From: Bolinopsis microptera
Taxonomy: Eukaryota; Ctenophora; Tentaculata; Lobata; Bolinopsidae
Direction of reading: 5' to 3'
Length of the DNA: 64,000 nucleotides
NCBI RefSeq assembly: GCF_026151205.1
Contig: NC_087084.1
Span: 1,774,312-1,838,311, forward strand
Shown here: positions 1,120 through 62,455 of the stretch, one piece after another
How positions within the stretch are numbered: the stretch's first letter is position 1
How the letters are laid out: every line of letters starts with the position of its first letter
Notes under the pieces: model-generated
What the model was told of the DNA's origin: nothing
The model's database searches: none
What the model saw: the letters and a program-made list of their open reading frames with translations, nothing else
Program-made: the position numbers and the translations under genes

Positions 1120-1927
1120 ATGAGATTCATACAAATAAAACTACTATTGTGGAAAAATGCTATCTTGATCAAGAGAAAACCAGTAAGTGAAGTTTCAATT
1201 AAAAATTTCTTTTTTTACCATAACTTTAAAAGGAAGAATTTTAGGGTGTTTTGTTGTAGACAAGAAGATGGAAGGAAAAAGATCCAGCTGAGGTCAGGTC
1301 AAAAAGTGATGAAAAACTAAATAGAAAATATCTGTTGCTAGTGTCCTAGATTTCAGTCAGCCATTAAATAATAACAAATAACTTGTATTTCAGTGGGTGA
1401 CTCTATTGCAGATACCCAATAAATAATAACAAATAACTTGTATTTCAGTGGGTGACTCTATTGCAGATACCCATTAAATAATAACAAATAACTTGTATTT
1501 CAGTGGGTGACTCTGTTGCAGATACCCATTAAATAATAACAAATAACTTGTATTTCAGTGGGTGACTCTATTGCAGATACCCAATAAATAATAACAAATA
1601 ACTTGTATTTCAGTGGGTGACTCTATTTCAGGCACCCATTAAATAATAACAAATAACTTGTATTTCAGTGGGTGACTCTATTTCAGGCACCCATTAAATA
1701 ATAACAAATAACTTGTATTTCAGTGGGTGACTCTATTTCAGGCACCCATTAAATAATAACAAATAACTTGTATTTCAGTGGGTGACTCTATTTCAGGCAC
1801 CCATTAAATAATAACAAATAACTTGTATTTCAGTGGGTGACTCTATTGCAGATCCTCCTACCTTTGGTCCTTTTCCTCGTCCTACTCGCAGTGCGACTAA
1901 AGCTGCCTCCTGTCAATGTTTCAGATA
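1120..1927 (+). CDS. ABCA: ABCA exons 1-2: N-terminus and TM1
   Basis: Exon 1 is 1120-1182 (phase 0, donor GTAAGT) and exon 2 is 1852-1927. Residues 8-13 read LLLWKN, the conserved start of ABCA proteins; the xLxxKN pattern is described in the family as a post-Golgi sorting signal. It is followed by a basic stretch (KRKP), and exon 2 opens with TM1 ([16 protein letters not shown], residues 22-37). The intron between them is occupied by nine copies of a 55-bp repeat that contains the exon 2 acceptor. Confidence 0.93.
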
Positions 1928-4900
1928 GTAAGTTGTATATTAATCTAATAACTTAATTTCCTAACCAAGCGGTATAATCTATTAATTTTTCATAGTAATT
2001 TAGTATAGGTGGAAACTGGATAATGTTTTGCGCAATAAATCACTTGGTCAGTTGGTAAAATATTTTGCTTTAAAATAATATTTTAAAGCAATTTCAGATA
2101 ACATTCTTATCTTTAAAAAGTCAAAACTCACCCTCACCCCCTCTAACTCACCCTCACTCCCTCTAACTCACCCTCACCCCCTCTAACTCACCCTCACTCC
2201 CTCTAACTCACCCTCACTCCCTCTAACTCACCCTCACTCCCTCTAACTCACCCTCACTCCCTCTAACTCACCCTCACTCCCTCTAACTCACCCTCACTCC
2301 CTCTAACTCACCCTCACTCCCTCTAACTCACCCTCACTCCCTCTAACTCACCCTCACTCCCTCTAACTCACCCTCACTCCCTCTAACTCACCCTCACTCC
2401 CTCTAACTCACCCTCACTCCCTCTAACTCACCCTCACTCCCTCTAACTCACCCTCACTCCCTCTAACTCACCCTCACTCCCTCTAACTCACCCTCACTCC
2501 CTCTAACTCACCCTCACTCCCTCTAACTCACCCTCACTCCCTCTAACTCACCCTCACTCCCTCTAACTCACCCTCACTCCCTCTAACTCACCCTCACTCC
2601 CTCTAACTCACCCTCACTCCCTCTAACTCACCCTCACTCCCTCTAACTCACCCTCACTCCCTCTTACCCTCTAACTCACCCTCCCTCCCTCTAACTCACC
2701 CTCACTACCTCTAACACACCCTCAGAGTACTACTACGCGAAGCCGATGCCCTCAGCAGGATACGTCCCCTTTATACAGTCCCTGATGTGTGACCCAATTA
2801 GTGGCCGACCTGAGATCAGACTGGAGCATGCGTCACCGTACAAAAAGTACTCTGGAGCTAGGTTAGTGTTGTAGTGACGTCACGTGGTGTTGCAGTGACG
2901 TCACATTGTGTTGCAGTGACGTCACGTGGTGTTGCAGTGACGTCACATGGTGTTGTAATGACGTCAAGTAGTGTTGTGGTTTTATAACTCAGCTAGATTT
3001 TGGTGACGTCAAGTTATATTAATAGTAACATCATGCTAAGTACTGCTAATTCCCCTAATGTTTGCAGCATATACCCGATGCTAATTAGTGCTAATTCCCC
3101 TAATGTTTGCAGCTCATTCCCCCAATGTTTGCAGCATATACCTGATGCTAATTAATGCTAATTCCCCCAATGTTTGCAGCATATACCCGATGCTAATTAG
3201 TGCTAATTACCCTAATGTTTGCAGCATATACCCGATGCTAATTAGTGCTAATTAGTGCTAATTACCATAATGTTTGCAGCATATACCCGATGCTAATTAG
3301 TGCTAATTCCCCTAATGTTTGCAGCATATACCCGATGCTAATTAGTGTTAATTGCCCTAATGTTTGCAGCATATACCCGATGCTAATTAGTGCTAATTCC
3401 CCCAATGTTTGCAGCATATACCCGATGCTAAGTACTGTTAATTAGTGCTAATTCCCCTAATGTTTGCAGCATATACCCGATGCTAAGTACTGCTAATTAG
3501 TGCTAATTCCCTCAATGTTTGCAGCATATACCCGATGCTAATTAGTGCTAATTCCCCTAATGTTTGCAGCATATACCCGATGCTAATTTCCCCTAATGTT
3601 TGCAGCATGCATATACCCGATGCTAAGTACTGCTGATTAGTGCTAATTCCCCTAATGTTTGCAGCATATACCCGATGCTAAGTACTGCTAATTAGTGCTA
3701 ATTCCCCCAATGTTTGCAGCATATACCCGATGATATCCCTGATAGACGCAACAGTACAGCTAACTGATACTTACTCCTTACTCACTGAGTATCACACTAC
3801 AATGCTTAAAGACATGTTCAACATTACTGATACGGACGATGTTGAGGCTGTGAAGGTTGGTGGAAATTAATTACTGATTCGGGTGTTTTCCAATTAGCAT
3901 ATTAATTTTTTATGGAGCTCAATGCTTAGTGACGTTTCTTAATTCTTGGTGGGATGTAACATAATTTGTTGATCCTTGGAGAATAGAGACTATTATGGGC
4001 TAATTAGCATCCAATTAGCTTCCAATTAGCATCCAATTGATCATAGCTAAATAGATAGCTATAAATAGATAGCTAAAAAATGGATTTAGGCAGGCGGTGA
4101 GACGACCTACTTTAAAATGAACTAACCAGGATATATTTCAGGAGGGAATAGCTCGGTCGTGGGAGAATGTTGTTGACAACTCTTCTGGTCTGATACCAGC
4201 CTCATTTACCAATTCATCAGGTTAGTGATATATCCATAGTAGGATCACGATTAAGATGACTAATGCATGTATGTTAATCCAATGTTGGAGATGATGTAGT
4301 ATTATCATTTATTGATTGTAATGTTAAGGTGAGTGCTATATCTCTACCTTTTCGGACGTAATATGACCGGACATTTCGTGAACGGACACAATTTTGAGTG
4401 GACATTTTGAGTGGACATTAAAATGAACACTAGGGCCTCCAGCGTCCAATTAATGTCCGTCCAAATAAAGTCCGATAAGGTATATACCTTTATATTTTTG
4501 TATGTGAATTAGATGAATCATTTATAATTTATAATATATTATTCTAAAACCTCCCCCAGATCCCCTTTTACCGGTGTATAAGCTTTACAAGAGAGACCTG
4601 GCGTCCATGTTAACTGCACCTTACGATGAAGTAGAACCACACGAGGTAATGTAACGTTATCTTATCAGGTGCAGGCAAATTATTTAGTGTAAATTAGTTT
4701 AGAGAGGCCTCTAAATATTTACAGGGATTCGGGATAAAGATAACGGAACGCTTGCTTAATCATTTTATTAATTCGTTAATTTCGGCAACAAAAATAAAAC
4801 CAACACTGAAAAGTTTCCTCCCAACAGCTTGTAGACGAAGTATACCCAGATCCGACAGATGAAATCCCTATTTACAAAGATCTGAAAAACAAAGCCTCAG

Positions 4901-7900
4901 CCCTTGACCCTATGCAAGGTTGTTAGATTTGTATTTTTATTAATACGTTATTAAAAGTACTACCTTATCGGTCATGATTATCACGGACATTACTTTCACG
5001 CTGAAGACCTTAGCGTGAATAATTAAGTTCGTGAAAATAATGTCTGTGGCATTAAGGTCCGTGAATAATAAAGTCCGGTGATTATTTCCATTAATTTTAA
5101 TGTGTGTGTCCCTACATATGCAGAAATTATGTGTAGCCGATTACTATATTAGTTTATTAGTGTACTAAAACAAATATAATCACTCCTCAGTCACATTCTA
5201 GAGTTCAGAAAAAGAGTAAAACACTTATTAAAAATTACCAAACATTTTTACAATTTTTGGACATTTTTGGGCGGTCATGAGCGTGAATAATTATGTCCGT
5301 AAAAAATTTGGTCCTTGAAAAACTTTTCTGTGACAATTATGTCCGATAAGGGATAAAAATGTATTTATCATGTGGAGTGAGTGTGACATATTTTCGATCA
5401 AAGATATTTCTAAAAAATATATAAAAGCTAATTAAAATTAGACGTATTTAACAACCTTGGCCCTCTGTCAGTCCTTGATCCTTTGACAGCTCAAGCAGCC
5501 CTCAAGAAAATGTTAAGCGGAAACGTGGACAAGGAGACGGCATACAAAGCGGAAAATAGTATGGAAATAATGATGAAGGAGTATTTTAAACACAAATATG
5601 TAAATAAAGGAAGTCACAGTGAGGTTTGTAACTAACTCCTACTTATTGATCACTTGTTAATCACTTGTTAATAACTTACTAATCACTAGTCAATCACTTG
5701 CTAATCAAGTTTTGTTAATCACTTGTTAATAACTTGTTAATCACTTGTTAATCACTTTTTAATCACTTTTTATTCACTTGTTAATCACTTGTTAATCACT
5801 TGTTAATCACTTGTTAATCACTTGTTAATCACTTTTTAATCACTTGTTAATCACTTGTTAATCACTTGTTAATCACTTGTTAATCACTTTTAAATCACTT
5901 GTTAATCACTTTTTAATCACTTGTTAATCACTTGTTAATCACTTTTAATCACTTGTTAATCACTTTTAATCACTTGTTAATCACTTGTTAATCACTTGTT
6001 AATCACTTGTTAATCACTTTTTGATCGCTTTTATGTGGTATTTTGGAGAATATTATATTGTTTAACTTAGTACTAGTTAATGTTGAACGTGGTTTTCACT
6101 TGCAAACTTTAAGAATCATCTCCGTTTAAGTTACATCATGGTATCATGTAATCATGAACTCGAATTACAAAGGACTCAAGTCTTTATATTTGTAAAGTGG
6201 TACCTTCAAAGAAATCAGAGTTGTTATAATTTATCCTGCATCACCGACACCTCATTCCCTCAGCTGTGAAAAATAAAATTGTTACCAATCCATTCACTAA
6301 CCATACACAAAAGTCAAAAGCTCGGCCCGTGAGAATAGGGGTATTTCTAATTTGGGGTATTTGTAACTAACAGTGGGTTTTGTGAGGGAGTGAAAAGCAA
6401 AATTTATGTTTTAAAAGTCGCAAAAGAGCCCAAAATTTTAAGGTATGAGCAATTCGTAACCGTTTCCAAAAAAATACTTAATTTAATATTATTGTTTCCG
6501 AAGTTCAACTTGAGATTTCATAAGGTACTGATCCAACTATTCAGCGTGGATAAAGAAAGTATCATTTAGAATTAGTTTAACATCACTTAAGAATTAGAAA
6601 CATTTCCCGAGAGAAACTTGAGGGACGATTTAGTTAGACTTAAGAAACCATTGCTTTGAATCTTTACTAATAGTAATTAATTAATTAGTTAATTGATAGT
6701 AATTGTTATTTTCTCAGAGTATTCACACAGACAAATTGCAGCAGTACTTGTGTAATGACCCAGCACTCAAATCAGACCAGGATATCCAGTATATGTGCCG
6801 TATTATGGCCCACAAGGGAAAGTGAGTAACCAGGTAACCAGGTAACCAGGTAACCAGGTAACCAGGTAACCAGGTAACCAGGTAACCAGGTAACCAGGTA
6901 ACCATGTAACCAGGTAACCATGTAACCAGGTAACCAGGATATCCAGTACATGTACCGTATTATGGCCCACAAAGGAAAGTGAGTCCTAATCTGTTGCAGT
7001 ATAAAACTGTATAATTCCAGTGTCATCAGCATCAGTATTCTCAATTTGAAAGTGCTTCAATTAGCTTGAATTTGGAGAGGATGATATTTCTACTGCTCTG
7101 AAACGACACATTCTGACTAATTTCCATTTAGAACTAGCCTGCAGTCCCTGGACCTGGACCTGCTCTCAATGGAAGTGATGGTAGCCAGTCAGGGAATTAA
7201 CGAAAAAACAAAGATGGTCAAGTTTGATTTACAGGCTCTGAAACTCTCTAACAAGACCCGTTACATTCAGGTTTTTTATTTTGATTAATTCATTAGCTTA
7301 ATATGATAATACAAATACTTTGCGATTCTTGAAGCTGACAGAACACTAACGTATTTATTGATAAAATTTCAAAATCGTATGAAATAAGATGTTATTCTAA
7401 ACTCACTGCAGGGTATGTTGTGTGGTAGAGACCCTTCAGCAATAGACCCCACAGACGAAGAGACCAGGACTCTGGGAGTGAAGCTGAAGCTGTTATCTGA
7501 CTTCAAACACGCCAAGATAACCTTCTCTCCTGACACCCCTCCTGTCAGGAATATCATTACCAAGGTTAGTCTGTCTAACCCGGTTACCTGGTTACCTGGT
7601 TACCTGGTTACCTGGTTACCTGGTTACCTGGTTACCTGGTTACCTGGTTACCTGGTTACCTGGTTACCTGGTTACCTGGTTACCTGGTTACCTGGTTACC
7701 TGGTTACCTGGTTACCTGGTTACCTGGTTACCTGGTTACCTGGTTACCTGGTTACCTGGTTACCTGGTTACCTGGTTACCTGGTTACCTGGTTACCTGGT
7801 TACCTGGTTACCTGGTTACCTGGTTACCTGGTTACCTGGTTACCTGGTTACCTGGTTACCTGGTTACCTGGTTACCTGGTTACCTGGTTACCTGGTTACC

Positions 7901-52900: not shown

Positions 52901-55900
52901 ACACACTCTCTCTCTCTGCAGATGCTCTAGTTTGTACCTGCTAGAATGTATCTCCGGATCCCGTATATTCCCGTACTGGATGTCTAACTTTCTGTGGGAC
53001 CTGGTCTCCTTCACCGTCGCTAACTGTGGGTGCATACTGGTGATTGTTATATTCCACTCTCCCTCCTTCTCCAGTGCGGATAACATTCCCGCTACATTTG
53101 TTATGTTCACTCTCTACGCCTGGTCCATCACTCCCCTCATGTTAGTGCAGCTTTACGCTGGTTACTATGGTTACTATGGTTACTATGGTTACTATGGTTA
53201 CTATGGTTACTATGGTTACTATGGTTACTATGGTTACTATGGTTACTATGGTTACTATGGTTACTATGGTTGTTTTACACATTTGGTGTGTTTGTTAAGG
53301 CGTAGTTCGGCTGTTGAGACCTGACAAGAAAGATGTTATATAATATTATATCATTGCTTTATGTTATATATTATCACAGCAATACTCAAATAAGTTGTAT
53401 CCATCAAGCCGATGCTAACGTTTATAAAGCAGGCAAATCATTCTTACTTCCCAGGTACATATTCTCTAAGACGTTCAGCGAGCCGAACAACGCATACGTA
53501 GTGATGATCTGCCTCAACACTTTCTGCGGAATAACCACTACTCTCATCACCTTCCTTATAGAGTTCCTTGCCCCTAATGACATAGGTAACTTACTTTCAT
53601 ATGTGGCTTTACATTTGATTCTTCATATCCATTCTACATATTTATCTTGTCGTGTTGTTGTTCTCGTTGTTCTCTTACATTTGATTCTTCATATCCTCTC
53701 ATCTTTTCATGTTATTGTTCTCGTAGCCTACTTATTATACTTCCAGCTCTTACTTAACACTACATCTGTTACAGGAATGATAAGTATTAACAATATCCTG
53801 AAGTACGTGTTCCTGGTATTCCCCAATTACTGTCTAGGTAGAGGCATCATGGACCTGGCTGCTAACCAGTTCGCTAACGACCTCCGGGTCATGTACGGTA
53901 AGAGACAGTAACCATAGTAACTAACGGTAAGAGAATAGTGCTTACTTTGGTGAGAGCATAGTGCTTACTTTGGTAAGAGAATAAACTTTGGTTTGCTGGT
54001 CTGGACTTGTTAATGGTAGTCTATATCAGCTCCGAGCATGCTTTTGATATTGTTGGTGTTATTAGTTGATCAATAAGAGAATCAAATTGGGAATTTAGTG
54101 GCTGGTTACTAGGGTTTAGTGGCATAAATGATAGCCGATAGCTAGTAGCTACTTAGCACTACTAATAAAACTCATTGTTAGAATCTCACATTGTAGTGTT
54201 TAGTAGGGAGCATAGTAAGGAATCTTACGAAAATCCCTCACTGTCAGGGTACCCGAAGATATCCCCGTGGAACTGGGATTTGATTGGACGGAACCTCACA
54301 TTCATGGGAGTTACCGGAGTTATCTACATAGTCCTACTCTGTATCATGAGTATACCTAGGAAGGGGAGGCGACGGAATGTGCCTAATGTTAACAAGGATT
54401 TGGAGGACGAGGATGTCAGGTAGTTTTTTTTGTGGTCACTGCTATGGTTACTATGGTCACTATGGTTACTATAGTTACTATGGTTACTATGACTACTATG
54501 GTTACTATGGTTACTATGGTTACTATGGTTACTATGGTTGCTATGGTTGCTATGGTTGCTATGGCTACTATGGTTAATATGGTTGCTATGGTTACTATGG
54601 TTACTATGGTTACTATGGTTACTATGGTTACTATGGTTACTATGGTTACTATGGTTACTATGGTTACTATGGTTACTATGGTTACTATGGTTATTATGGT
54701 TATTATGGTTACTATGGTTACTATGGTTACTATGGTTACTATGGTTACTATGGTTACTATGGTTACTATGGTTACTATGGTTACTATGGTTACTATGGGT
54801 ACTATGGTTACTATGGTTACTATGGTTACTATGGTTACTATGGTTACTATGGTTACTATGGTTACTATGGTTACTATGGTTACTATGGTTACTATGGTTA
54901 CTATGGTTACTATGGTTACTATGGTTACTATGGTTACTATGGTTACTATGGTTACTATGGTTACTAATCGAGACGAGTGCATTTACATTTTATATCTGAT
55001 TACTCAGTAAATATTCAATACAGTAACTGGTTACTAGGCGGGTTGCTGGTTACTAGGGCTGCTGGTTACTAGGGCTGCTGGTTACTAGGGCTGCTGGTTA
55101 CTAGGGCTGCTGGTTATTAGGGTTGCTGGTTACTAGGGTTGATGGTTACTAGGGTTGCTGGTTACTAGGGTTGCCGGTTACTAGGGTTGCTGGTTACTAG
55201 GGTTGCTGGTTACTAGGGTTGCTGGTTACTAGGGTTGCTGGCTACTAGGGTTGCTGGTTACCAGGGTTGCCGGTTACTAGGGTTGCTGGTTACTAGGGTT
55301 GCTGATTACTAGGGTTGCTGATTACTAAGGTTGCTGGTTACTAGGGTTGCTGATTACTTAGGTTGCTGGTTACTAGGGTTGCTGGTTACTTTAGCCACCG
55401 TCTAGGTAAACCAGTAACCCCTAGTAATTTTGTAGTATTAAGCAGATAATTTATAATTATATCCTCAGAACTGAGCGAAAAAGGACGATCTGCTCTTACG
55501 GGTATAACGACATTCTCAAGACCCAGAACTTGTGCAAAGTCTTCGGAAAGAAACACATTGCAGTTAACAGACTGGCTTTCTCGGTCGCTCCTGGTCAGTC
55601 TAAACTCACTGATCTCTGTACAACTTTCCTTATCTTCAAATTTTCAACGTGATAAAATCTATCATCATATTTTTAAGACTAGCAATATGATTTTCAGGAG
55701 AGTGTTTCGGTTTACTGGGTATAAACTAGCAATATGATTTTCAGGAGAGTGTTTCGGTTTACTGGGTATAAACTAGCAATATGATTTTCAGGAGAGTGTT
55801 TCGGTTTACTGGGTATAAACTAGCAATATGATTTTCAGGAGAGTGTTTCGGTTTACTGGGTATAAACTAACAATATGATTTTCAGGAGAGTGTTTCGGTT

Positions 55901-58900
55901 TACTGGGTATAAACTAGCAATATGATTTTCAGGAGAGTGTTTCGGTTTACTGGGTATAAACTAGCAATATGATTTTCAGGAGAGTGTTTCGGTTTACTGG
56001 GTATAAACTAGCAATATGATTTTCAGGAGAGTGTTTCGGTTTACTGGGTATAAACTAGCAATATGATTTTCAGGAGAGTGTTTCGGTTTACTGGGTATAA
56101 ACGGAGCTGGAAAAACAACATCCTTCAAAATGCTGACTGGAGAAATTACACCTTCTAATGGAGACGCGGTAAGAGTTTAGTAGCCATAGTAAAGATATGT
56201 GCTTCTATAGTAACCATTGCTTAGTTACTAGTAACCACAATTACAATTTGTATCGTAGTGTGAGTTATGAGTGTGTTGGTTAGTGGCTCTTATTTACTTA
56301 CAGGTTACTACATACTATTATTTAAGGATCATAAACAAGTTCTTGGTCTCAATAGTAAGTTTAACTTACTACTTTACTTCTAACGCCAAAAAGATGCTGA
56401 AAACTGCTGAAAACTGAATCCCCCTGCAGGTAGTATCCCAAATGAGTCTGTGTCACCAGATAAGTACCACTCGCAGACAAATGGGATACTGTCCCCAAAC
56501 AGATGCTCTTCTACCCACACTCACTGCCTACGAGACTCTTGCTCTGTTCGCTAGATTGAGGGGTATACCGGAGTGTCATATTGACAACATGTCAAGGAAG
56601 GTATGTTCGCTAGATTGAGGGGTATACCGGAGTGTCATATTGACAACATGTCAAGGAAGGTATGTAATGTTCGCTAGATTGAGGGGTATACCGGAGTGTC
56701 ATATTGACAACATGTCAAGGAAGGTATGTAATGTTCGCTAGATTGAGGGGTATACCGGAGTGTCATATTGACAACATGTCAAGGAAGGTATGTTCGCTAG
56801 ATTGAGGGGTATACCGGAGTGTCATATTGACAACATGTCAAGGAAGGTATGTTCGCTAGATTGAGGGGTATACCGGAGTGTCATATTGACAACATGTCAA
56901 GGAAGGTATGTTTGCTAGATTGAGGGGTATACCGGAGTGTCATATTGACAACATGTCAAGGAAGGTATGTTCGCTAGATTGAGGGGTATACCGGAGTGTC
57001 ATATTGACAACATGTCAAGGAAGGTATGTAATGTTCGCTAGATTGAGGGGTATACCGGAGTGTCATATTGACAACATGTCAAGGAAGGTATGTTCGCTAG
57101 ATTGAGGGGTATACCGGATTGTCATATTGACAACATGTCAAGGAAGGTATGTTCGCTAGATTGAGGGGTATACCGGAGTTTCATATTGACAACATGTCAA
57201 GGAAGGTATGTCCCAGACTGTTCAAGTGCAGAATATTATCTCTCCAAGTTTTCATCTCGAATGTGTGTTCTTTATATAAACCGATTGTTGGACTTTTGTT
57301 TATTCGAGCTTAAGGATTTGCCACAGTGGATAGTATCCCACACAACCAGCCAATAAAAGCCCTCGCCAGCTGTGGCGAAACGTAATTACGTGCCCCCCCC
57401 ACCCCCCCCACTGGTATTCACATTGTCCTTATCTCAGATAATCAGAACAGTAGGCCTGACCACGTGGGCGTCACGACCATGTGGTACTTACAGTGGGGGC
57501 AACAAGAGGAAACTATCAGCTGCTATTACTCTGGTGGGAGAGCCTAAACTCATCCTCATGGATGAGCCGACAGCGGGCATGGACCCTGGGGCTAGGAGGG
57601 CTCTGTGGGCAGTTATACAGGCTCAGAAGCGGAAAGGTGCGTCTAGTCGAGGCCTCGGTTGTCTTGATTGTGGTTTCCAATGATCAAGTGTTGCAGTTGA
57701 CTTAAACTTACAGGCTTTTTATTGACCTCTAATAATAATATACTCTATCGTGTGAGTTGTGACACATGTTTTTATAAAGAACAACTCTCAGTAGACAGTA
57801 ACCATAGTAACTAACCCTCAGTAACCATAGTAACTTACCCTCAGTAGACAGTAACCATAGCAACTAACCCTCAGTAGACAGTAACCATAGCAACTAACCC
57901 TCAGTAGACAGTAACCATAGTAACTAACCCTCAGTAACCATAGTAACTAACCCTCAGTAACCCTAGTAACTAACCCTCAGTAACCATAGTAACTAACCCT
58001 CAGTAACCATAGTAACTAACCCTCAGTAACCCTAGTAACTAACCCTCAGTAACCATAGTAACTAACCCTCAGTAACCATAGTAACTAACCCTCAGTAACC
58101 ATAGTAACTAACCCTCAGTAACCATAGTAACTAACCCTCAGTAGACAGCAACCATAGTAACTAACCCTCACTAACCAAAGTAACTTACCCTCAGTAACCA
58201 TAGTAACTAACCCTCAGTAACCATAGTAACTAACCCTCAGTAACCATAGTAACTAACCCTCAGTAACCCTAGTAACTAACCCTCACTAACCAAAGTAACC
58301 TCAGGCAAGGCAGTAGTGATAACCTCCCACAGCATGTCCGAGTGTGAGGTGTTATGTAGTAGAATAGGAATTATGGTAGCAGGACGGTTACGGTGTCTGG
58401 GCAGCTCTCAGCATCTCAGAGATAAGTATGGGAATGGATACGTTATCCAGCTGAAACTCAACCCTCAGGAGTACAACCTGCATAAGGTTTGTGTTATCCG
58501 CAAAGTTATTTAGTTTGTCTTATCCGAAAAGTTATTTAGTTTGTGTTATCCGCAAAGTTATTTAGTTTGTCTCATCCGCAAAGTTATTTAGTTCGTCTAA
58601 TCTGAAAAGTTATTTAGTTTCATGAATTAAATTTGGGTGAGCGATTTAGTGGAAGCGTCTGAATTTTGCACACTGCACACGATTATTATTCACCACACTA
58701 TCTACTGTGCAACAAGCAGCATTTCCACTACAGGTAAAAACCCACATGCAAGTTCACCTACCCGGCTCAGTACTCAAAGAAGAGAACTACTGCAACCTGA
58801 GGTACGAGATAAAACAGAACAAATGCCAGGTAGCTGACATCTTCACCGTCATGCAGCGAGCTAAGCCCATTCTGGGACTGCTCGACTACGCTGTCCATCA

Positions 58901-59149
58901 GACAAACCTCGAGCAAGTAAGATCGATTTGTGATTTTTCGCAGATATTATATTTGTATTCTTGATAACGTCAGCTACCATACAGATCAATCAGCTAGCGC
59001 TTCAGTTTGTTAATGTAAAAACAATTTTACGATCCCAGGTTTTTATCAACTTCGCTCAAATTGAAACACCTGATAACATCGACGATGAACTTTTGTGTTT
59101 GGAAGAAAACGTGGTTACACCGTCAAATCTTCAACTTTCTTTAGACTAA
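1120..59149 (+). CDS. ABCA: Full-length ABC transporter subfamily A (ABCA1/4/7-like), 52 exons, 2,232 residues
   Basis: Full ABCA transporters are single chains arranged TM1, large extracellular domain (ECD1), TM2-6, NBD1, linker, TM7, ECD2, TM8-12, NBD2, C-terminal domain; family members move or flip lipids at plasma or endolysosomal membranes. All of these blocks are found here in order. I followed splice sites through the whole locus: 52 exons, all introns GT-AG, every junction in phase, summed length 6,699 nt. Exon coordinates are given in the block entries below. Both NBDs keep Walker A, Q-loop, signature, Walker B and H-loop, so the protein should be catalytically competent. The length is close to vertebrate ABCA1 (about 2,260 residues). 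The coding part is about 12% of the 58-kb span; the rest is mostly tandem repeat. The substrate and the exact orthologue are not determinable here. Confidence 0.95.
1335..1851 (+). repeat. 55-bp array containing the exon 2 acceptor (9 copies)
   Basis: Units start at 55-bp steps (1391, 1446, 1501 ... 1831). Each unit holds two pyrimidine-rich AGs, TGTATTTCAG and CTATTGCAG. The last CTATTGCAG is the acceptor used for exon 2 at 1852. The first unit follows the exon 1 donor by about 150 bp. Confidence 0.93.
2128..2720 (+). repeat. 20-bp array of branch-point/pyrimidine-tract units before exon 3
   Basis: About 29 copies of CTCACCCTCACTCCCTCTAA. Each unit has a CTAAC branch-point-like core and a pyrimidine tract. 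The terminal unit mutates into CTCTAACACACCCTCAG, the acceptor of exon 3. The array is thus a multiplied 3' splice signal region without the AG. Confidence 0.92.
2726..18814 (+). CDS. ABCA: ABCA exons 3-18: extracellular domain 1
   Basis: Exons: 2726-2861, 3720-3855, 4142-4220, 4560-4645, 4828-4918, 5472-5623, 6718-6821, 7132-7270, 7412-7564, 8577-8699, 9125-9241, 9581-9710, 9996-10081, 10282-10381, 17857-17966, 18696-18814. They encode about residues 46-667. Family landmarks are KPMPSAG after TM1, a LCGR motif (exon 11), VVWAGIVF (exon 16), a [11 protein letters not shown] block (exon 17) and PYPC just before TM2 (exon 18). Many N-glycosylation sequons are present. Exon 12 may instead end at 8633 (GTGAGT, also phase 0). 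The exon 17 acceptor (17856) was chosen because it is the one that keeps phase. Exons 9, 11, 13, 14 and 16 have duplicated borders. Confidence 0.9.
2862..3010 (+). repeat. Short array of TGACGTCA (CRE-like) units in intron 3
   Basis: About six imperfect 20-bp units of GTGTTGCAGTGACGTCACAT, each with the full CRE palindrome TGACGTCA or a close variant. It starts directly at the exon 3 donor. Confidence 0.85.
3030..3735 (+). repeat. About 45-bp array containing the exon 4 acceptor and first 13 nt of exon 4
   Basis: Roughly 15 copies, mostly 44-46 bp, each containing CCTAATGTTTGCAG followed by CATATACCCGATG. The last copy supplies the real acceptor, AG at 3718-3719, and CATATACCCGATG is there the true start of exon 4. 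The unit therefore spans the intron-exon border. Confidence 0.94.
4347..4480. mobile_element. Small MITE-like element in intron 5
   Basis: A 134-bp segment begins CCTTTTCGGAC and ends GTCCGATAAGG, an imperfect terminal inverted repeat. The interior is rich in GGACA/TGTCC motifs. Its termini match those of the larger element in intron 7 (4963-5351), so the two probably belong to one non-autonomous DNA transposon family. No target-site duplication is clear. Confidence 0.55.
4963..5351. mobile_element. MITE with about 25-bp terminal inverted repeats in intron 7
   Basis: It begins CCTTATCGGTCATGATTATC and its end, read on the minus strand, begins CCTTATCGGACATAATTGTC. That gives near-perfect inverted ends on a 389-bp non-coding body with repeated GTCCGTGA-type motifs. 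It is a non-autonomous DNA transposon; the superfamily was not assigned. Confidence 0.65.
5640..6025. repeat. 11-bp array (AATCACTTGTT)n at the start of intron 8
   Basis: About 33 slightly degenerate copies of AATCACTTGTT, beginning about 15 nt after the exon 8 donor. The rest of intron 8 (6026-6717) is AT-rich unique sequence in which I see nothing further. Confidence 0.92.
6822..6985 (+). repeat. Duplicated exon 9 end flanking a (GGTAACCA)n array
   Basis: Exon 9 ends at 6821 with donor GTGAGT. A 110-bp run of GGTAACCA units follows, and then the last 41 nt of exon 9 appear again (6938-6978, three substitutions) with the same GTGAGT donor at 6979. Splicing at the second copy would not keep frame through the array. 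Confidence 0.9.
7582..8380 (+). repeat. (TTACCTGG)n array followed by a second copy of the exon 11 end and donor
   Basis: About 92 nearly perfect 8-bp units run to 8313. Then 8315-8374 repeats the last 60 nt of exon 11 (three substitutions) with the same GTTAG donor. The satellite is therefore sandwiched between two copies of one exon-intron border. The continuous frame across this region is satellite readthrough. Confidence 0.95.
8700..9124 (+). repeat. Three 115-bp copies of the exon 13 acceptor and exon start
   Basis: CATTCCCAG followed by CTCCTAGATCG occurs at 8895, 9010 and 9125 (exon-start positions), exactly 115 bp apart. Each copy repeats the first 51 nt of exon 13 and then runs into TAGTTACTTACC-type satellite. 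Only the third copy continues into the remaining exon (GAGGAGCTACAGCC). Confidence 0.93.
9711..9935 (+). repeat. Intron 14 array with repeated exon 14 donor
   Basis: Exon 14 ends ATTACTG|GTCAGTTTACC. The following units of TAGTTACC include TTATTACTGGTCAATTTACC and TTGTTACTGGTCAGTTTACC, i.e. the exon end plus donor recurs twice more within the array. Confidence 0.85.
10334..15731 (+). repeat. 5.4-kb composite array of the exon 16 3' end plus donor
   Basis: Each unit holds the last 44-45 nt of exon 16 (CTCTACCCTTCCTCC ... CGCATGAACG), then the donor GTTAG, then one to several 9-bp CCAGGGTAA units. I estimate 65-75 units of 55-130 bp. The exonic part is highly conserved (occasional A/G change in ATTAGATA) while the 9-bp tail varies in number. 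The array stops at 15731, just before the Penelope-like element. Confidence 0.96.
15733..17200 (+). mobile_element. 5'-truncated Penelope-like retroelement in intron 16
   Basis: The body is a reverse transcriptase frame from about 15841 to 17199. It is preceded at 15785-15832 by a perfect 48-bp palindrome, which may mark the insertion end or an element terminus. The frame has no ATG and enters directly in the N-terminal RT region, so the copy is 5' truncated. AT-rich sequence downstream (17201-17856) may include its 3' UTR; I see no clear target-site duplication or 3' repeat. Confidence 0.75.
15841..17199 (+). pseudogene. Penelope-like reverse transcriptase fragment, about 450 codons
   Basis: The reading frame is uninterrupted up to TAG at 17199. 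Recognised Penelope-type blocks are [11 protein letters not shown] near the start, YITPKQHK, the palm motif [30 protein letters not shown], the catalytic YQDD ([12 protein letters not shown]), and CNYLDL with the thumb region after it. There is no C-terminal GIY-YIG endonuclease before the stop, so it is either an endonuclease-lacking type or one with an N-terminal (permuted) endonuclease that has been lost with the 5' end. The intact frame suggests a young insertion. It is on the same strand as ABCA. Confidence 0.85.
17201..17856. other. Rest of intron 16 downstream of the retroelement
   Basis: AT-rich sequence with one G/C-rich hairpin (GGGGGTC ... CCCCCC, about 17667-17687). No coding frame and no tandem array were seen. 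It could be the 3' UTR of the Penelope-like element plus ancestral intron. Confidence 0.4.
17985..18680. repeat. (CCAGGGTAAta)n array in intron 17
   Basis: Mixed 9-bp and 11-bp units of CCAGGGTAA and CCAGGGTAATA with occasional GGGTATTATACC variants. It is related to the 9-bp tail of the exon 16 array and to the intron 18 array. It ends just before the exon 18 acceptor. Confidence 0.92.
18855..19530. repeat. (CCAGGGTAA)n 9-bp array in intron 18
   Basis: About 75 nearly perfect copies of a 9-mer. Because 9 is a multiple of 3, it gives long open frames in several phases (periodic GYP, TLV or TRV peptides) that resemble collagen-like repeats but are not genes. A few units are CCATGG, creating GTAACCATGGTAAC. 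Confidence 0.95.
19547..24994 (+). CDS. ABCA: ABCA exons 19-25: transmembrane domain 1 (TM2-TM6)
   Basis: Exons: 19547-19673, 20018-20117, 20297-20399, 20704-20818, 24190-24291, 24679-24768, 24877-24994 (residues 667-919). Several hydrophobic helices are visible. Exon 19 ends in the conserved cytosolic coupling helix [15 protein letters not shown] (residues 698-712, completed by exon 20), a strong ABCA marker. Exon 25 carries the [10 protein letters not shown] block that precedes NBD1 across the family. The intron after exon 22 is 3.4 kb, nearly all of it a 23-bp repeat of the exon 22 donor junction. Intron 25 contains the nested antisense gene. Confidence 0.94.
20400..20590. repeat. Intron 21 array with GTCACGTGAC palindromes
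   Basis: About five 42-bp units of AACCAATCAGGAGGCTTTAT followed by TCTAGTCACGTGACC. The first unit starts at the exon 21 donor (CAG|GTAACCAATCAGG). Three units contain the full palindrome GTCACGTGAC; the first has AACGTGAC. Confidence 0.9.
20803..24068 (+). repeat. 23-bp array of the exon 22 donor junction (about 140 copies)
   Basis: Exon 22 ends GGGGCAAATCTGTAGTG|GTAAGT. That junction is repeated as a 23-bp unit for 3.3 kb with many single-base variants (GTTAGT, GTAGGT, GTGAGT donors included). An unrelated 75-bp piece with a pyrimidine/purine stem (CTCCTCCCTCTTCACAAGG ...) interrupts it at 23755-23829. Minus-strand open frames with periodic LPLQIC peptides are artefacts of 3 x 23 = 69. 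Confidence 0.97.
24999..25165 (+). repeat. (TTACACATA)n array ending in a decoy copy of the exon 26 start
   Basis: Nine-bp units fill 25009-25146, then comes CATACTACAG followed by GGCACACCTGTG, a near copy of the exon 26 acceptor and first bases (true copy at 34830-34852). This is followed by TGCCAGGACGTTAGCACTT, resembling the end of exon 25 plus its donor (24991-25003). If this AG were used, the frame would end after 18 residues at a TAA (25205-25207), giving a half transporter without NBD1. Confidence 0.85.
25166..25552. other. Unique AT-rich sequence downstream of the nested gene
   Basis: Presumably 3' UTR and flank of the antisense gene. No coding frame, repeat or convincing poly(A) hexamer on the minus strand was seen. 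Confidence 0.4.
25553..33360 (-). CDS. Nested antisense gene: secreted cysteine-rich protein, 5 exons, 401 residues
   Basis: Read on the minus strand inside ABCA intron 25. Exons: a 33360-32759, b 31020-30644, c 29958-29874, d 29743-29629, e 25579-25553 (TAG). All introns are GT-AG, phases match, and the total is 1,206 nt. Residues 1-17 are a signal peptide ([17 protein letters not shown]). A short repeat [15 protein letters not shown] and a basic/Thr-Glu stretch follow, then two cysteine-containing regions: [12 protein letters not shown] ... VCTCG in exon a, VCEE ... GIC ... YCEKKCKK ... YPCC in exon b. The protein is acidic overall with no membrane helix, so it is probably secreted. I recognise no family. 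Exons a, b and d are firm. Exon c and the 27-nt exon e (GKIVQCSN) rest on phase and acceptor quality. Confidence 0.72.
25669..29669 (-). repeat. 46-bp array of the nested gene's exon d end plus donor (about 87 copies)
   Basis: On the minus strand each unit contains the last 36 nt of exon d (TTTATGAGGACAGTACACG ... TATTGCGAG) plus GTAGGTTGTG, i.e. the exon-intron border. It fills 4.0 kb and nearly all of the last intron of the antisense gene. Units are highly homogeneous (C/T change in GTGTAC, rare CTTCAT). The copy at the 29.63-kb end is continuous with the rest of exon d and is the real exon. Confidence 0.96.
30034..30242. repeat. Two microsatellites, (GT)n and (CT)n
   Basis: A GT run at about 30034-30054 and a CT/CTCTCT run at about 30210-30240, within intron b-c of the antisense gene. 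No other feature is seen between 29959 and 30643. Confidence 0.85.
31575..32214 (+). mobile_element. hAT-like MITE, copy A (640 bp) with 8-bp target-site duplication
   Basis: It starts AGGTAGTGCGCCAT and ends with the inverted partner GTGCACCCCCTA. It is flanked by GTTAAGTT on both sides (31567-31574 and 32215-32222). It is non-coding and lies in the first intron of the antisense gene. Compared with copies B and C it has an internal palindrome (AAATTTTTCGGACACTTTCC around 31748-31802). Eight-bp duplications and TAGGGGTG-like ends suggest a hAT-derived element. Confidence 0.85.
32223..32758. other. Intron sequence between MITE A and exon a of the antisense gene
   Basis: AT-rich, no coding frame longer than about 70 codons and no repeat recognised. 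Confidence 0.5.
33361..34711. other. Upstream region of the antisense gene inside ABCA intron 25
   Basis: Should hold the nested gene's promoter, reading leftwards. It contains a TATATATATA run near 33730 (+ strand), short direct repeats (GACCAATAACATTTAAAGAT twice at about 34263-34303; GGCACAAGACACCACAAACT units at 34494-34560), and nothing else that I can identify. Confidence 0.4.
34712..34839 (+). repeat. (TTACACATA)n array ending at the true exon 26 acceptor
   Basis: About 12 copies of the same 9-mer as at 25009-25146, ending CATACTACAG with exon 26 starting at 34840. Its pairing with the left copy brackets the whole nested gene. Confidence 0.93.
34840..36862 (+). CDS. ABCA: ABCA exons 26-31: nucleotide-binding domain 1
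   Basis: Exons: 34840-34979, 35208-35336, 35637-35826, 36069-36151, 36524-36656, 36779-36862. ATPase motifs by residue: Walker [10 protein letters not shown] 971-979, Q-loop CPQ (Q1018), signature LSGGMKRKL 1070-1078, Walker B IIILDE 1090-1095 with PTAG, H-loop STHHMDEAD (H1126). Signature and Walker B fall together in the 83-nt exon 29. No key residue is missing. Exon 26 joins exon 25 in phase 1 across the 9.8-kb intron that holds the nested gene. Confidence 0.96.
36152..36523. repeat. Intron 29 is a 39-bp array almost from donor to acceptor
   Basis: Eight to nine units of TTATCTAATATTTAGTTACT followed by TATAGTTATAATATTAATA. The first unit merges with the donor (GTTAGTTAG) and the last becomes TTACTATTATCAG, the acceptor of exon 30. 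Confidence 0.9.
36903..37012. repeat. Intron 31 CCATGGTA repeats containing an X-box-like palindrome
   Basis: Repeated ACCATGGTATTGTA units. At about 36959-36973 the sequence GTAACCATGGTAAC matches the RFX/X-box consensus GTHNYYATRRNAAC. Function is not implied by sequence alone. Confidence 0.6.
37027..39773 (+). CDS. ABCA: ABCA exons 32-35: post-NBD1 regulatory linker
   Basis: Exons: 37027-37207, 37318-37501, 39242-39356, 39650-39773 (residues 1172-1373). Exon 32 is acidic and Ser/Thr-rich. Exon 33 encodes the family-wide tail of NBD1 ([20 protein letters not shown], then STLEE), continued in exon 34 as VFLSVAD. Exon 35 is Asp/Glu-rich and ends QILKR before TM7, matching the cytosolic regulatory segment of other ABCA proteins. 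Intron 33 holds a very homogeneous 45-bp array. Confidence 0.93.
37637..39195. repeat. Very homogeneous 45-bp array with CACGTG in intron 33
   Basis: About 34 copies, of which roughly the first 30 look identical. Each has CAGTCTCCTCAACTCACAAC, a C-rich tract and CCCCACGTGACACACC. Period 45 (15 codons) keeps long frames open on both strands; these are not genes. A degenerate relative of this unit builds the E-box arrays of intron 40. TGTTCTAGCAGT occurs at both array flanks (37627 and 39209), next to the exon 34 acceptor. Confidence 0.96.
39472..39649 (+). repeat. 44-bp array of the exon 35 pyrimidine tract (4 copies)
   Basis: Units of ACCTATGTAGCTGCTACTGA followed by ACTTGTTTTACTCCTCCTCT. 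The last unit ends TCCTCCTTTCAG, the acceptor of exon 35. It is another array built on a 3' splice region. Confidence 0.88.
39774..39880. repeat. CRE/E-box repeats in intron 35
   Basis: Partial repeats of ACAACACGTGACGTCATAGC and CGCGCTACAACACGTGG starting at the exon 35 donor. A poly-C run lies later in the intron (about 40086-40100). Confidence 0.75.
40120..41757 (+). CDS. ABCA: ABCA exons 36-40: TM7 and most of extracellular domain 2
   Basis: Exons: 40120-40232, 40389-40523, 41061-41153, 41299-41440, 41555-41757. Exon 36 carries TM7 (about residues 1384-1402). ECD2 follows, with conserved landmarks RYGALTFGE and the Trp-His 'WHS... [14 protein letters not shown]' region that precedes TM8 in the family. 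The 40389 exon must end in phase 1; that excludes the open frame at 40650-40724 as an exon, which is instead a dispersed repeat found elsewhere in the window. Confidence 0.92.
40505..40640 (+). repeat. 48-bp repeat of the exon 37 end plus donor (3 copies)
   Basis: CCTGGGCACCTGATATCG|GTTAGTC occurs with exon-end positions 40523, 40571 and 40619, exactly 48 bp apart. All three donors are identical. Confidence 0.93.
40650..40724 (+). mobile_element. 74-bp dispersed short repeat (TTACCTGGG...CAGTAA), copy in intron 37
   Basis: Closely similar to 60847-60920, 62580-62653 and, inverted, 62658-62758. Shared core GATTCGGCGGAATGACAGGC. Ends are TTACCTGGG and (inverted) TTACTGGGC-like. It has an open frame and looks like an exon, but including it breaks the ABCA reading frame. 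Confidence 0.75.
41205..41290. repeat. CACGTGACGTCACACTCTACC repeats in intron 38
   Basis: Four units of about 22 bp, each with a TGACGTCA palindrome, ending next to the exon 39 acceptor (GCTATTTCAG). Confidence 0.88.
41758..42460. repeat. TGACGTCA array in intron 40 (about 35 copies of a 20-bp unit)
   Basis: Unit TAGCTTACTCATGTGACGTC plus A, with AAGTGACGTCA and variant units. It begins 2 nt after the exon 40 donor (GTTGGTAGCTTACTCATGTG). Period near 21 keeps a long frame open; no protein is implied. Confidence 0.95.
42585..45515. repeat. Intron 40 block 1a: CACGTG-containing array
   Basis: Starts with a 66-bp unique header (GAGGCAGGCAGAGCATTTTC ... AAAATATCTCC). It is followed by about 80 units of CCCAGTCTCACAACCCCTCT plus CCCCACGTGACACACCA, with short (CCCCTCACGTG) and long (CTCCCCC) variants. 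Related to the intron 33 array. Confidence 0.93.
45516..47065 (+). repeat. Intron 40 block 1b: about 20 copies of the exon 41 acceptor plus first 64 nt
   Basis: Units of 76-78 bp contain CACTAACCAG (branch-point-like CTAAC plus AG), then the start of exon 41 (ATTGGAAGAACCTGTCAGAG ... CTAACAAC) and CCCCTCCCCC. In units with six C's a TAA within CACTAACCAG is in frame with the exon, so use of such an internal acceptor, without further splicing, would end translation within one unit. Confidence 0.95.
47066..49110 (+). repeat. Intron 40 block 2: repeated header, E-box array, exon 41 junction array
   Basis: The header recurs at 47088, then about 500 bp of CACGTG units, then (47640-49110) about 20 exon 41 junction units. 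The order of variants (AACTTGTCAGAGTACGGTG units, CCTACC units) repeats that of block 1b almost exactly, so the block is a recent segmental duplication. Confidence 0.9.
49111..52384 (+). repeat. Intron 40 block 3: header, E-box array, exon 41 junction array ending at the true exon
   Basis: Header at 49135, CACGTG array to about 51040, then about 17 junction units. The final acceptor at 52384 continues into real exon 41 sequence (CTAACAACGGCTCCCTAGCT), where all earlier units read CCCC. This block carries more private substitutions than block 2. Confidence 0.92.
52385..54419 (+). CDS. ABCA: ABCA exons 41-45: end of ECD2 and transmembrane domain 2
   Basis: Exons: 52385-52568, 52922-53140, 53455-53585, 53775-53897, 54248-54419 (residues 1602-1878). 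Exon 41 finishes ECD2 and opens TM8. Exon 42 contains further helices. Exon 42 must end at CTCAT|GTTAGT (53140): this gives the family-typical PLMY at the junction, and a later GTTACT donor breaks phase. Exon 44 carries [18 protein letters not shown], a conserved ABCA block. Exon 45 has the last helix and a basic/acidic cytosolic segment. Exons 41 and 42 are preceded by tandem copies of their own acceptor and first bases. Confidence 0.93.
52741..52921 (+). repeat. 86-bp duplications of the exon 42 acceptor and exon start (3 copies including the real one)
   Basis: CTCTGCAG followed by ATGCTCTAGTTTGTACCTGC ... ATTCCCGTAC occurs with exon-start positions 52750, 52836 and 52922. The first two break off after ATTCCCGTAC into CTCCGTACTAACACA (branch-point-like) and a CT tract; the third continues as exon 42. 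Confidence 0.94.
53157..53272. repeat. (GGTTACTAT)n array in intron 42
   Basis: About 12 copies of the 9-mer, beginning 17 nt after the exon 42 donor. Same unit as the intron 45 array. Confidence 0.93.
53898..54000 (+). repeat. Repeated donor-like GTAAGAG units in intron 44
   Basis: The exon 44 donor CG|GTAAGAGACAG recurs as CGGTAAGAGAATAG, TGGTGAGAGCATAG and TGGTAAGAGAATAA within 80 nt, separated by TGCTTACTTTGG. Confidence 0.75.
54430..54966. repeat. (GGTTACTAT)n 9-bp array in intron 45
   Basis: About 59 copies, giving long frames on both strands (periodic TMV, TIV and LLW peptides) that are not genes. Confidence 0.95.
55023..55392. repeat. (GGTTGCTGGTTACTAG)n 16-bp array in intron 45
   Basis: About 22 copies of a 16-bp unit related to the neighbouring 9-mer (shared GGTTACTA). 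The exon 46 acceptor lies 75 bp downstream. Confidence 0.93.
55469..58486 (+). CDS. ABCA: ABCA exons 46-50: nucleotide-binding domain 2
   Basis: Exons: 55469-55593, 56074-56168, 56430-56600, 57438-57636, 58305-58486. Motifs by residue: Walker [10 protein letters not shown] 1927-1935, Q-loop CPQ (Q1974), signature YSGGNKRKL 2026-2034, Walker B LILMDE 2046-2051 followed by PTAGMDP, H-loop SHSM (H2083). The [10 protein letters not shown] signature is typical of the second NBD of ABCA proteins. All catalytic residues are intact. Exon 47 (Walker A) is preceded by nine tandem copies of its acceptor plus first 27 nt. Exon 48 is followed by eleven copies of its 3' end plus donor. Confidence 0.96.
55677..56073 (+). 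repeat. 47-bp array of the exon 47 acceptor plus Walker A exon start (9 copies)
   Basis: Each unit is AACTAGCAATATGATTTTCAG followed by the first 27 nt of exon 47 (GAGAGTGTTTCGGTTTACTG ...). Copies are almost identical (one G/A change near 55870). Only the last copy continues into GGAGCTGGAAAAACAAC, the Walker A codons; the others run GGGTATAAACTAG. Confidence 0.96.
56548..57210 (+). repeat. 59/64-bp array of the exon 48 end plus donor (11 copies)
   Basis: TTCGCTAGATTGAGGGGTAT ... ATGTCAAGGAAG|GTATGT repeats with either GTATG or GTATGTAATG as linker. It contains the last 52-53 nt of exon 48. The first copy is the real exon end (56600); later ones carry rare changes (CGGATTGTC, GGAGTTTC). Confidence 0.96.
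57783..58300 (+). repeat. 23-bp array (CAGTAACCATAGTAACTAACCCT) before exon 50
   Basis: About 21 units, each with CTAACCCTCAG, a branch-point-like CTAAC plus an AG. The terminal unit becomes AAAGTAACCTCAG, the exon 50 acceptor. Some units contain a GTAGACAG insertion. Confidence 0.92.
58487..58625 (+). repeat. 29-30-bp array starting at the exon 50 donor
   Basis: Exon 50 ends CATAAG|GTTTGTGTTATCCG. GTTTGTSTTATCCGMAAAGT then TATTTA repeats about five times, so the donor hexamer GTTTGT recurs in most units (GTTCGT in one). Confidence 0.88.
58734..59149 (+). CDS. ABCA: ABCA exons 51-52: C-terminal domain and stop
   Basis: Exons 58734-58916 and 59039-59149, the latter ending in TAA. Exon 51 encodes the fold after NBD2 and ends TNLEQ. 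Exon 52 begins VFINFA (residues 2197-2202), the counterpart of the conserved VFVNFA motif near the ABCA1 C-terminus, followed by a short acidic tail. Full reading-frame continuity to this stop closes the gene model. Confidence 0.94.
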
Positions 59150-61867: not shown

Positions 61868-62455
61868 AGGTAGTGCGCCATCGACAGTGAGCCGCGCGTG
61901 CCGACTGTAGGATGGTTTTTTAGCGCTAATTTCGGCCAGCACAATTTTCTTCAACCAAATAGATATTAAGTATCCTTCCCGACCTCCGATCATTGCAACA
62001 AAAATTGGTAAGCTTACTCATAGACTTACAAGGAAAGTGTCCGAAACGTTTAAAGCATATCCAACCATCAGACATTATGTTACAGGTAAAAACAGCGTAT
62101 TTTGCCCCATTTTGATCACTACATCAACTCCGATATCCACCAAATTTTTCGGACAGTTGTGAAAGCCCTATTGGAAGGTCGTCGCCAATTTTCAGAATGA
62201 TCTCATTCAAGGAACTGAAGATATTACAGAATAATACGACAAAAATTAACGAATTACGCCAAATTACGCGACTTTTACACCTAATTTTGCTCCAAAAGCC
62301 GCACACCATCAAATATGGCACCTAGGCGAAACTCACTGATCTTTCCAAAAAGGTATGACAAATGTGGTATTGTTAAAATTCTCACAGTCTCTAGAAAACA
62401 ATGGTACAACAATTTTTAAAATCCGAGCAAGTTTATTTTTATGGTGCACCCCCTA
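61868..62455 (+). mobile_element. hAT-like MITE, copy C (588 bp)
   Basis: Flanked by GAAAGAGT on both sides (61860-61867 and 62456-62463). Together with copy B it forms a 1.4-kb inverted repeat with a 200-bp GC-rich centre. Confidence 0.85.

Follow-up and report, generated by a model that had tools for sequence, protein, structure and literature searches.

Minisatellites across exon-intron borders in a ctenophore ABCA transporter gene and its paralogs, and the placement of large arrays at exon edges

Several introns of a ctenophore gene contain tandem copies of their own splice junctions, which raises the question of whether exon borders are the places where such arrays are born or the places where they grow. 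The gene lies in a window of 64,000 nucleotides from Bolinopsis microptera (contig NC_087084.1), which belongs to the ctenophores, for which a position as sister group of all other animals has been argued. All coordinates without a contig name are positions in this window, and features are on the forward strand unless stated otherwise. The gene extends from 1120 to 59149 (ATG at 1120, stop codon at 59147-59149) and encodes an ABCA1/4-like transporter of 2297 amino acids in 52 exons. The exon model was drawn by reading the sequence; a script then confirmed that 2297 codons and the stop form one open frame and that 51 of 51 introns have GT-AG ends. The identification is based on this exon chain and on PDB matches: a part of 1363 residues matches ABCA1, ABCA7, ABCA4, and ABCA3 in the PDB set, the first three being the best relatives, with E-values down to 1.5e-283. 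Given the protein of this gene as input, a purpose-written spliced-alignment program recovered 51 of 52 exons, which is a check on the program more than on the gene model. Arrays of all types occupy 33,776 of the 51,136 intronic bases; 16,445 of the 51,136 belong to junction arrays. Two observations concern other elements in this region. An open reverse-transcriptase-like frame of 457 codons (15826-17196, intron 16; Pfam RVT_1 E 0.0012 and RdRP_1 E 0.00057, both below the cut-off) has motifs because of which we take it to be Penelope-like, and a dispersed repeat is present in two copies, one in intron 25 (31618-32175) and one downstream of the gene (61911-62416).

For each of the 102 junctions, a word of 10 exonic plus 8 intronic bases was sought within the same intron, requiring at least 15 of 18 matching positions. 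Copies of the own junction are present in 14 of the 51 introns, seven times for the donor and seven times for the acceptor; the control, in which the same words were sought in other introns, gave 3 in 5100. The first-pass annotation had named at least 14 of 51 introns, and its list of donor arrays (after exons 9, 11, 14, 16, 22, 37, and 48) is identical to the one obtained here. The number of inner copies ranges from 1 to about 136-137. This maximum belongs to exon 22/intron 22, where a 23-bp donor unit fills 20795-24068. At exon 16/intron 16, a unit of about 79 bp, approximately 46 of which are exonic, is followed by 71 inner copies (10336-15731, start set by eye), and the 59-bp unit of exon 48/intron 48 (56545-57211) consists of 56 exonic bases plus the donor and has 10 inner copies. 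Smaller donor arrays with two inner junction copies each were found at exon 14/intron 14 (unit 28/84 bp; 9703-9921, start approximate) and exon 37/intron 37 (unit 48 bp; 40506-40633). In introns 9 and 11, the own-junction test and a reading of the sequence reveal two copies of exon tail plus donor on either side of an 8-bp array: the exon-9 duplication surrounds an array of the 8-bp motif GTAACCAG (6781-6985), the exon-11 duplication one of 92 copies (7500-8383), all ends being approximate. Counted strictly, 11 of the 14 positive introns hold a junction array; the others are these two and intron 25 with its one distant copy.

Acceptor copies were detected in introns 1, 3, 12, 25, 40, 41, and 46. 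The most extended array precedes exon 41, where a 78-bp unit forms two blocks (45498-49117 and 51027-52450) separated by a 37-bp array; within 45498-52450, intron 40 contains 56 inner junction copies. Units of 55 bp (intron 1/exon 2, 1361-1853) and 47 bp (intron 46/exon 47, 55678-56102) have eight inner copies each, a unit of about 45-55 bp in front of exon 4 (intron 3, 3034-3732) has 12, and the units of 115 bp (intron 12/exon 13, 8886-9175) and 86 bp (intron 41/exon 42, 52742-52976) have two each. The exonic part of a unit can reach 66-69 bases. Acceptor arrays had been reported before exons 4, 13, 26, 41, 42, and 47, and the corresponding introns 3, 12, 25, 40, 41, and 46 all gave positives, that of intron 25 being distant. 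The array before exon 2 had been described as repeating the AG only; its unit does contain exon sequence, which makes it a true acceptor array. The arrays before exons 3, 35, and 50 are indeed free of exon sequence, as had been noted, and end 1, 1, and 5 bp before the exon.

Intron 25 is a special case. A 9-bp array ends 1 bp before exon 26 (34715-34838), and a 9-bp array together with the acceptor and the first exon-26 bases forms the distant second copy of the acceptor detected by the own-junction test (25000-25160). The same combination of array, acceptor, and first exon bases thus occurs at 25000-25160 and 34715-34850, on either side of a 9.6-kb insert; the two acceptor copies are 9.7 kb apart, and a nested antisense gene lies between them. 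It looks as if this gene had entered a duplicated short intron. The nested gene itself has a junction array, as the first-pass annotation had stated; it is of the donor type, with a 46-bp unit and 85 inner copies on the minus strand (25665-29664, exon end at 29629).

Other arrays touch a border without containing the junction. Two that were absent from the earlier description are a 41-bp array beginning 1 bp inside intron 21 (20401-20592) and a 26-bp array beginning exactly at the exon 50 donor (58487-58620). Intron 29 (36152-36523) is nearly entirely array, from 1-11 bp past the donor to 2 bp short of the acceptor. A further observation is the 8/9-bp motif GTAACCAG(G), which contains the donor-like CAG/GTAAC and forms arrays in both orientations in several introns and upstream of the gene (1-415, 6826-6938, 7578-8315, 10386-15731, and 18006-19529); two-unit words of it were found in none of the six ABCA paralog loci introduced below.

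These loci hold six ABCA paralogs, are spread over five contigs, and amount to 190 kb of sequence; their genes were modelled by spliced alignment. Own-junction copies were found in 10 of 154 introns (six donor and four acceptor; control 16 in 47,124), one of the ten being doubtful, namely the 198-bp intron 3 on C4, which has a low-complexity look. Five of the six loci are positive; the C1 locus gave 0 of 25 introns. Positive cases on contigs C4, C5, C6, and C9, in addition to C13, also bear on the suspicion that the arrays are assembly artefacts. Long arrays are hard to assemble, and PMC3087553 reports that one comparable amphioxus array was misassembled in the draft genome. However, this spread over contigs, the existence of few-copy cases, and internal variants at many frequencies make an artefact a very remote prospect, even though individual copy numbers may be wrong.

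Genome-wide, three tandem copies of the donor word AGGTAAGT gave 1380 matches versus 12 for the reversed word, compared with 10,764 versus 7,968 for the single word, and an acceptor word gave 369 versus 90. These figures are matches and not arrays, as one array yields many matches; those listed for the acceptor word come mostly from few large arrays. Among the matches listed for the donor word are eight arrays, two of which clearly have their start in a coding exon, which in one case is metalloprotease-like (Pfam Reprolysin E 0.0032, below the curated cut-off). For the remaining six, such a start is not evident. Two of the six, at C1:36576-37703 and C1:761375-762150, share a 32-bp unit although they are 0.7 Mb apart, so that not all donor-word arrays are junction arrays and some represent dispersed repeats. 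A 47-bp unit with the acceptor-like TTTTCAGGACAG occurs, among the matches listed, in two large arrays 200 kb apart (C3:10522198-10525883 and C3:10725660-10727363). Genome searches with protein queries agree with a ctenophore host. An Antennapedia homeodomain had 19 matches, all of them at 55% identity or less; a ctenophore photoprotein had 61, some of them fragments and most at 85-90%, and the one examined is closest to berovin and mnemiopsin. Searches with cox1 and with GFP families yielded nothing for this purpose, and the GFP control had no match. The photoprotein genes are single open frames in tandem clusters with a spacing of about 0.94-1.03 kb (C5:17012652-17026413, C13:11082373-11094352, C1:21999334-22006938, and C3:3415412-3427375).

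Within the window gene, array units are common to introns 12/14/15, 16/17/18, 33/40, 42/44/45/49, and 35/38/40, sometimes on opposite strands; for introns 33 and 40, the unit is about 90% alike over 78 bp. The comparison of window units with the introns of the paralogs gave one match. This pattern suggests that array sequence has been copied locally, among introns lying near one another. For junction-type units of 16-120 bp, no match in another gene's introns was found among the 205 introns sampled, and these units are in this respect not introner-like, but the 32-bp donor-word unit on C1 does recur at two places.

Do the arrays lie at borders more often than chance would place them? The first-pass annotation had argued that random birth would not put array edges at exon borders this often. 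One reply is pure geometry: introns are short, random arrays would often fall on borders, purely exonic ones would be purged by selection, and no special process would be needed. The median length of array-free introns is indeed only 195 bp in the window gene and 201 bp in the paralogs, so that random placement of a 50-bp unit will often bring it across a border. For the corresponding null model, each array was collapsed to one unit and units were placed uniformly, which allows for intron and unit length. The placement tables exclude units shorter than 14 bp and the extra blocks of intron 40; the main table, which combines window and paralogs, comprises the 40 arrays in introns with a collapsed length below 1000 bp and thus also drops those of at least 1000 bp (57 events, two at borders). 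In this table, 30 of 40 arrays touch a border, whereas 13.4 are expected, which is about a twofold excess: 18 arrays straddle the border (expected 8.6), and 12 have an edge there without a copy of the own junction (expected 4.8). The earlier argument was thus right about the excess and underrated chance, which by itself accounts for 13.4 of 40. The null depends on the collapsed length, and the excess disappears when introns are shrunk to 0.3 times that length. The exonic overlap of the 18 straddling arrays is spread across the allowed range, as geometry predicts (KS p 0.53; C6-7 was left out and the overlaps of introns 3, 14, 16, and 22 were set by hand). This even spread means that breakpoints do not sit on the junction.

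The number of copies distinguishes birth from growth. A lower-threshold set of 63 array events was split at three copies; this cut-off was set post hoc, and all modelled genes belong to the ABCA family. Among arrays with fewer than three copies, 6 of 28 are at borders, compared to 5.3 expected, and three straddle, compared to 2.7. Among those with at least three copies, 27 of 35 are at borders compared to 11.1 expected (P 4.6e-9), which is about 2.4-fold. The two classes differ in border placement (Fisher p 1.3e-5), and with geometry as offset, the border bias increases with copy number (likelihood-ratio p 0.0031). At two copies, the fit nonetheless retains a positive intercept of 0.53 log-odds; the few-copy class is small. 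Both data sets agree: in the window alone, the values are 4 of 11 (expected 2.5) below three copies and 15 of 20 (7.1) from three copies on, and in the paralogs alone 2 of 17 (2.8) and 12 of 15 (4.0). The picture was unchanged when the cut was moved to four copies, when only introns shorter than 500 bp were used, when introns were shortened by 50 bp (P still 2e-6 for the excess of arrays with at least three copies), and when long introns were included (few-copy arrays 6 of 62 at borders versus 5.7 expected, many-copy arrays 29 of 58 versus 11.5). Small-unit arrays, among which the array spanning exon 18 was counted once and the extra blocks of intron 40 were left out, behave similarly: of those with at least six copies, 12 of 16 are no more than 25 bp away from a border, compared to 4.5 expected. 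Geometry therefore describes the few-copy arrays well and leaves both the overall excess and that of the larger arrays unexplained; the present sample contradicts it unless introns measured about 0.3 times their collapsed length, and we regard it as an unlikely explanation for the whole. GC content was considered as a cause of growth at borders and rejected: it matters (p 0.0085), but the border effect stays (p 1e-6).

Duplications thus seem to arise at any position, and the ones that come to be large are those next to or across an exon edge; it is growth or survival, more than birth, that is biased to borders. Chromatin, transcription, and repair in the vicinity of exons are possible causes, as is selection acting via splicing. 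The first-pass annotation had offered two readings, that duplication starts preferentially at splice junctions or that border-anchored arrays survive. The second, extended to growth, fits the placement of arrays with three or more copies; the first is at odds with the chance-like frequency of few-copy arrays at borders and with the even exonic overlap. Seeding at junctions could involve, for instance, breaks, paused transcription, or microhomology of the shared AG/GT. It can draw on the twofold abundance of straddling arrays overall, on the strong genome-wide over-representation of the donor word in tandem, and on the small positive intercept at two copies. Few-copy arrays without clear bias and breakpoints anywhere in the exon rather than at the border nevertheless render it improbable.

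If an intron begins or ends with many equivalent splice sites, which of them is used? In all 14 positive introns of the window gene, splicing at the nearest inner copy would add a stop codon (13 introns) or shift the frame (intron 41, which would stay open), and therefore the outermost copy, i.e. the first donor or the last acceptor, would be the one that makes the protein. Judged by the reading frame, the exon-adjacent copy should be the one that is spliced. According to PMC9225289, alternative splice sites are paired across the exon in long introns and across the intron in short ones. As outermost copies are nearest across the exon, these introns fit exon definition; the occurrence of both donor arrays, where the first copy would be needed, and acceptor arrays, where it would be the last, points in the same direction. 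The inner sites look competent: across 22 arrays, 333 of 406 inner copies equal or exceed the score of the real site. In 15 arrays, the core letters GT/AG vary in 2 of 792 cases and other letters in 524 of 12,514, and both core columns are invariant in 14 of 15 arrays versus 9.1 expected (P 0.002). This low variability would be expected if repeated splice sites were selected since extra copies help to recruit the splicing machinery. However, within the 22 columns that surround the core in the four largest arrays, the difference is marginal (one variant in 8 core columns versus 47 in 80 others; Poisson P 0.052), and border arrays without junction copies are enriched as well. We do not claim selection on inner splice sites, given that the signal, suggestive overall (P 0.002), is marginal in relation to nearby columns, and judge such a benefit to be quite improbable as the reason why the repeated sites are kept.

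The arrays belong to a known kind. PMC3087553 and PMC3902484 describe amphioxus mirages, boundary-spanning minisatellites in Adh3, the globins BflGb6 and BflGb9, troponin C, and PGBD5, which reportedly leave splicing undisturbed and for which a link to intron gain was proposed. The ctenophore arrays share several of the traits reported there: a minisatellite-like unit crosses the exon-intron boundary (14 of 51 introns, 11 strictly), at 5' as well as 3' boundaries (seven donor and seven acceptor cases, six and four in the paralogs), and AG/GT is kept in many copies, with the 2 of 792 altered core letters in 15 arrays. They differ in their host, in scale (as many as about 137 copies and up to kilobases in a single intron), and in affecting many introns of one gene; moreover, the random placement of few-copy arrays and the border bias of large ones were measured here in a ctenophore. 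Ordinary intronic VNTRs and minisatellites are likewise tandem, homogeneous units of tens of base pairs with some unit sharing between introns; unlike these, the present units include a splice junction that looks functional, and their exonic part comprises up to 66-69 bases. As in the Rogers model of intron gain by tandem duplication of an AGGT-containing exon, tandem duplication copies splice signals; unlike in that model, the intron may have come first here. Three junction arrays (C6-5, C9a-11, and window intron 46) are at intron positions shared with another ABCA gene that lacks the array, and in our judgement these positions fall in well-aligned ATP-binding domains. The intron may therefore predate its array in these three cases, with the reservation that the coincidence of intron positions among the ABCA genes is overall weak (16 of 154 versus 9.9 expected). 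Judged by titles and abstract openings, none of the papers searched reports junction-spanning minisatellites in ctenophores; the available passages of the Hormiphora genome paper give 13% tandem repeats and many nested genes and do not mention junction arrays. Within the same limits of these sources, the border growth bias was not found described before.

Taken as mirages, the arrays are probably best explained as follows. Ordinary tandem duplications of DNA would arise randomly along the gene, and some would straddle an exon-intron border. A straddling duplication would be tolerated, as the reading frame suggests, because splicing keeps the exon-adjacent copy and the extra copies fall into the intron. 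Border arrays would then grow or survive more often than arrays in the middle of introns, and their growth may add as much as kilobases to an intron. That duplicated splice sites are tolerated does not suffice as an explanation, because border arrays without a copy of the own junction are enriched, too (12 versus 4.8, and the small units).

A more specific and rather doubtful version is a ratchet driven by splicing, in which selection favours runaway growth of junction arrays and thereby turns short introns into long ones. A junction duplicated in a short intron would lead the spliceosome, which pairs sites across the intron, to pick the wrong inner copy; once the array had become longer, exon definition would take over and the exon-adjacent copy would win. 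The 23 accepted introns with junction arrays, from which the doubtful intron 3 on C4 was left out, are all at least 285 bp long, and 103 of the 182 others, including the doubtful one, are shorter; length is confounded with growth in this comparison. A direct test of whether short introns are intolerant of junction arrays has no power, with less than one event expected and one seen, the doubtful C4 case. The ratchet would explain straddling arrays and not border arrays without splice sites.

These results extend an amphioxus curiosity to a ctenophore, at far larger scale. About 137 near-identical donors, or 56 acceptors, next to one exon constitute a natural test of how the spliceosome chooses when sites are equal, because the copy favoured under exon definition is the opposite of the one favoured under intron definition. 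The contrast between few-copy arrays, placed at random, and large ones, biased to borders, gives a concrete and checkable account of how introns lengthen. If the ratchet were true, duplication of a splice junction would be a way of converting short introns into long ones.
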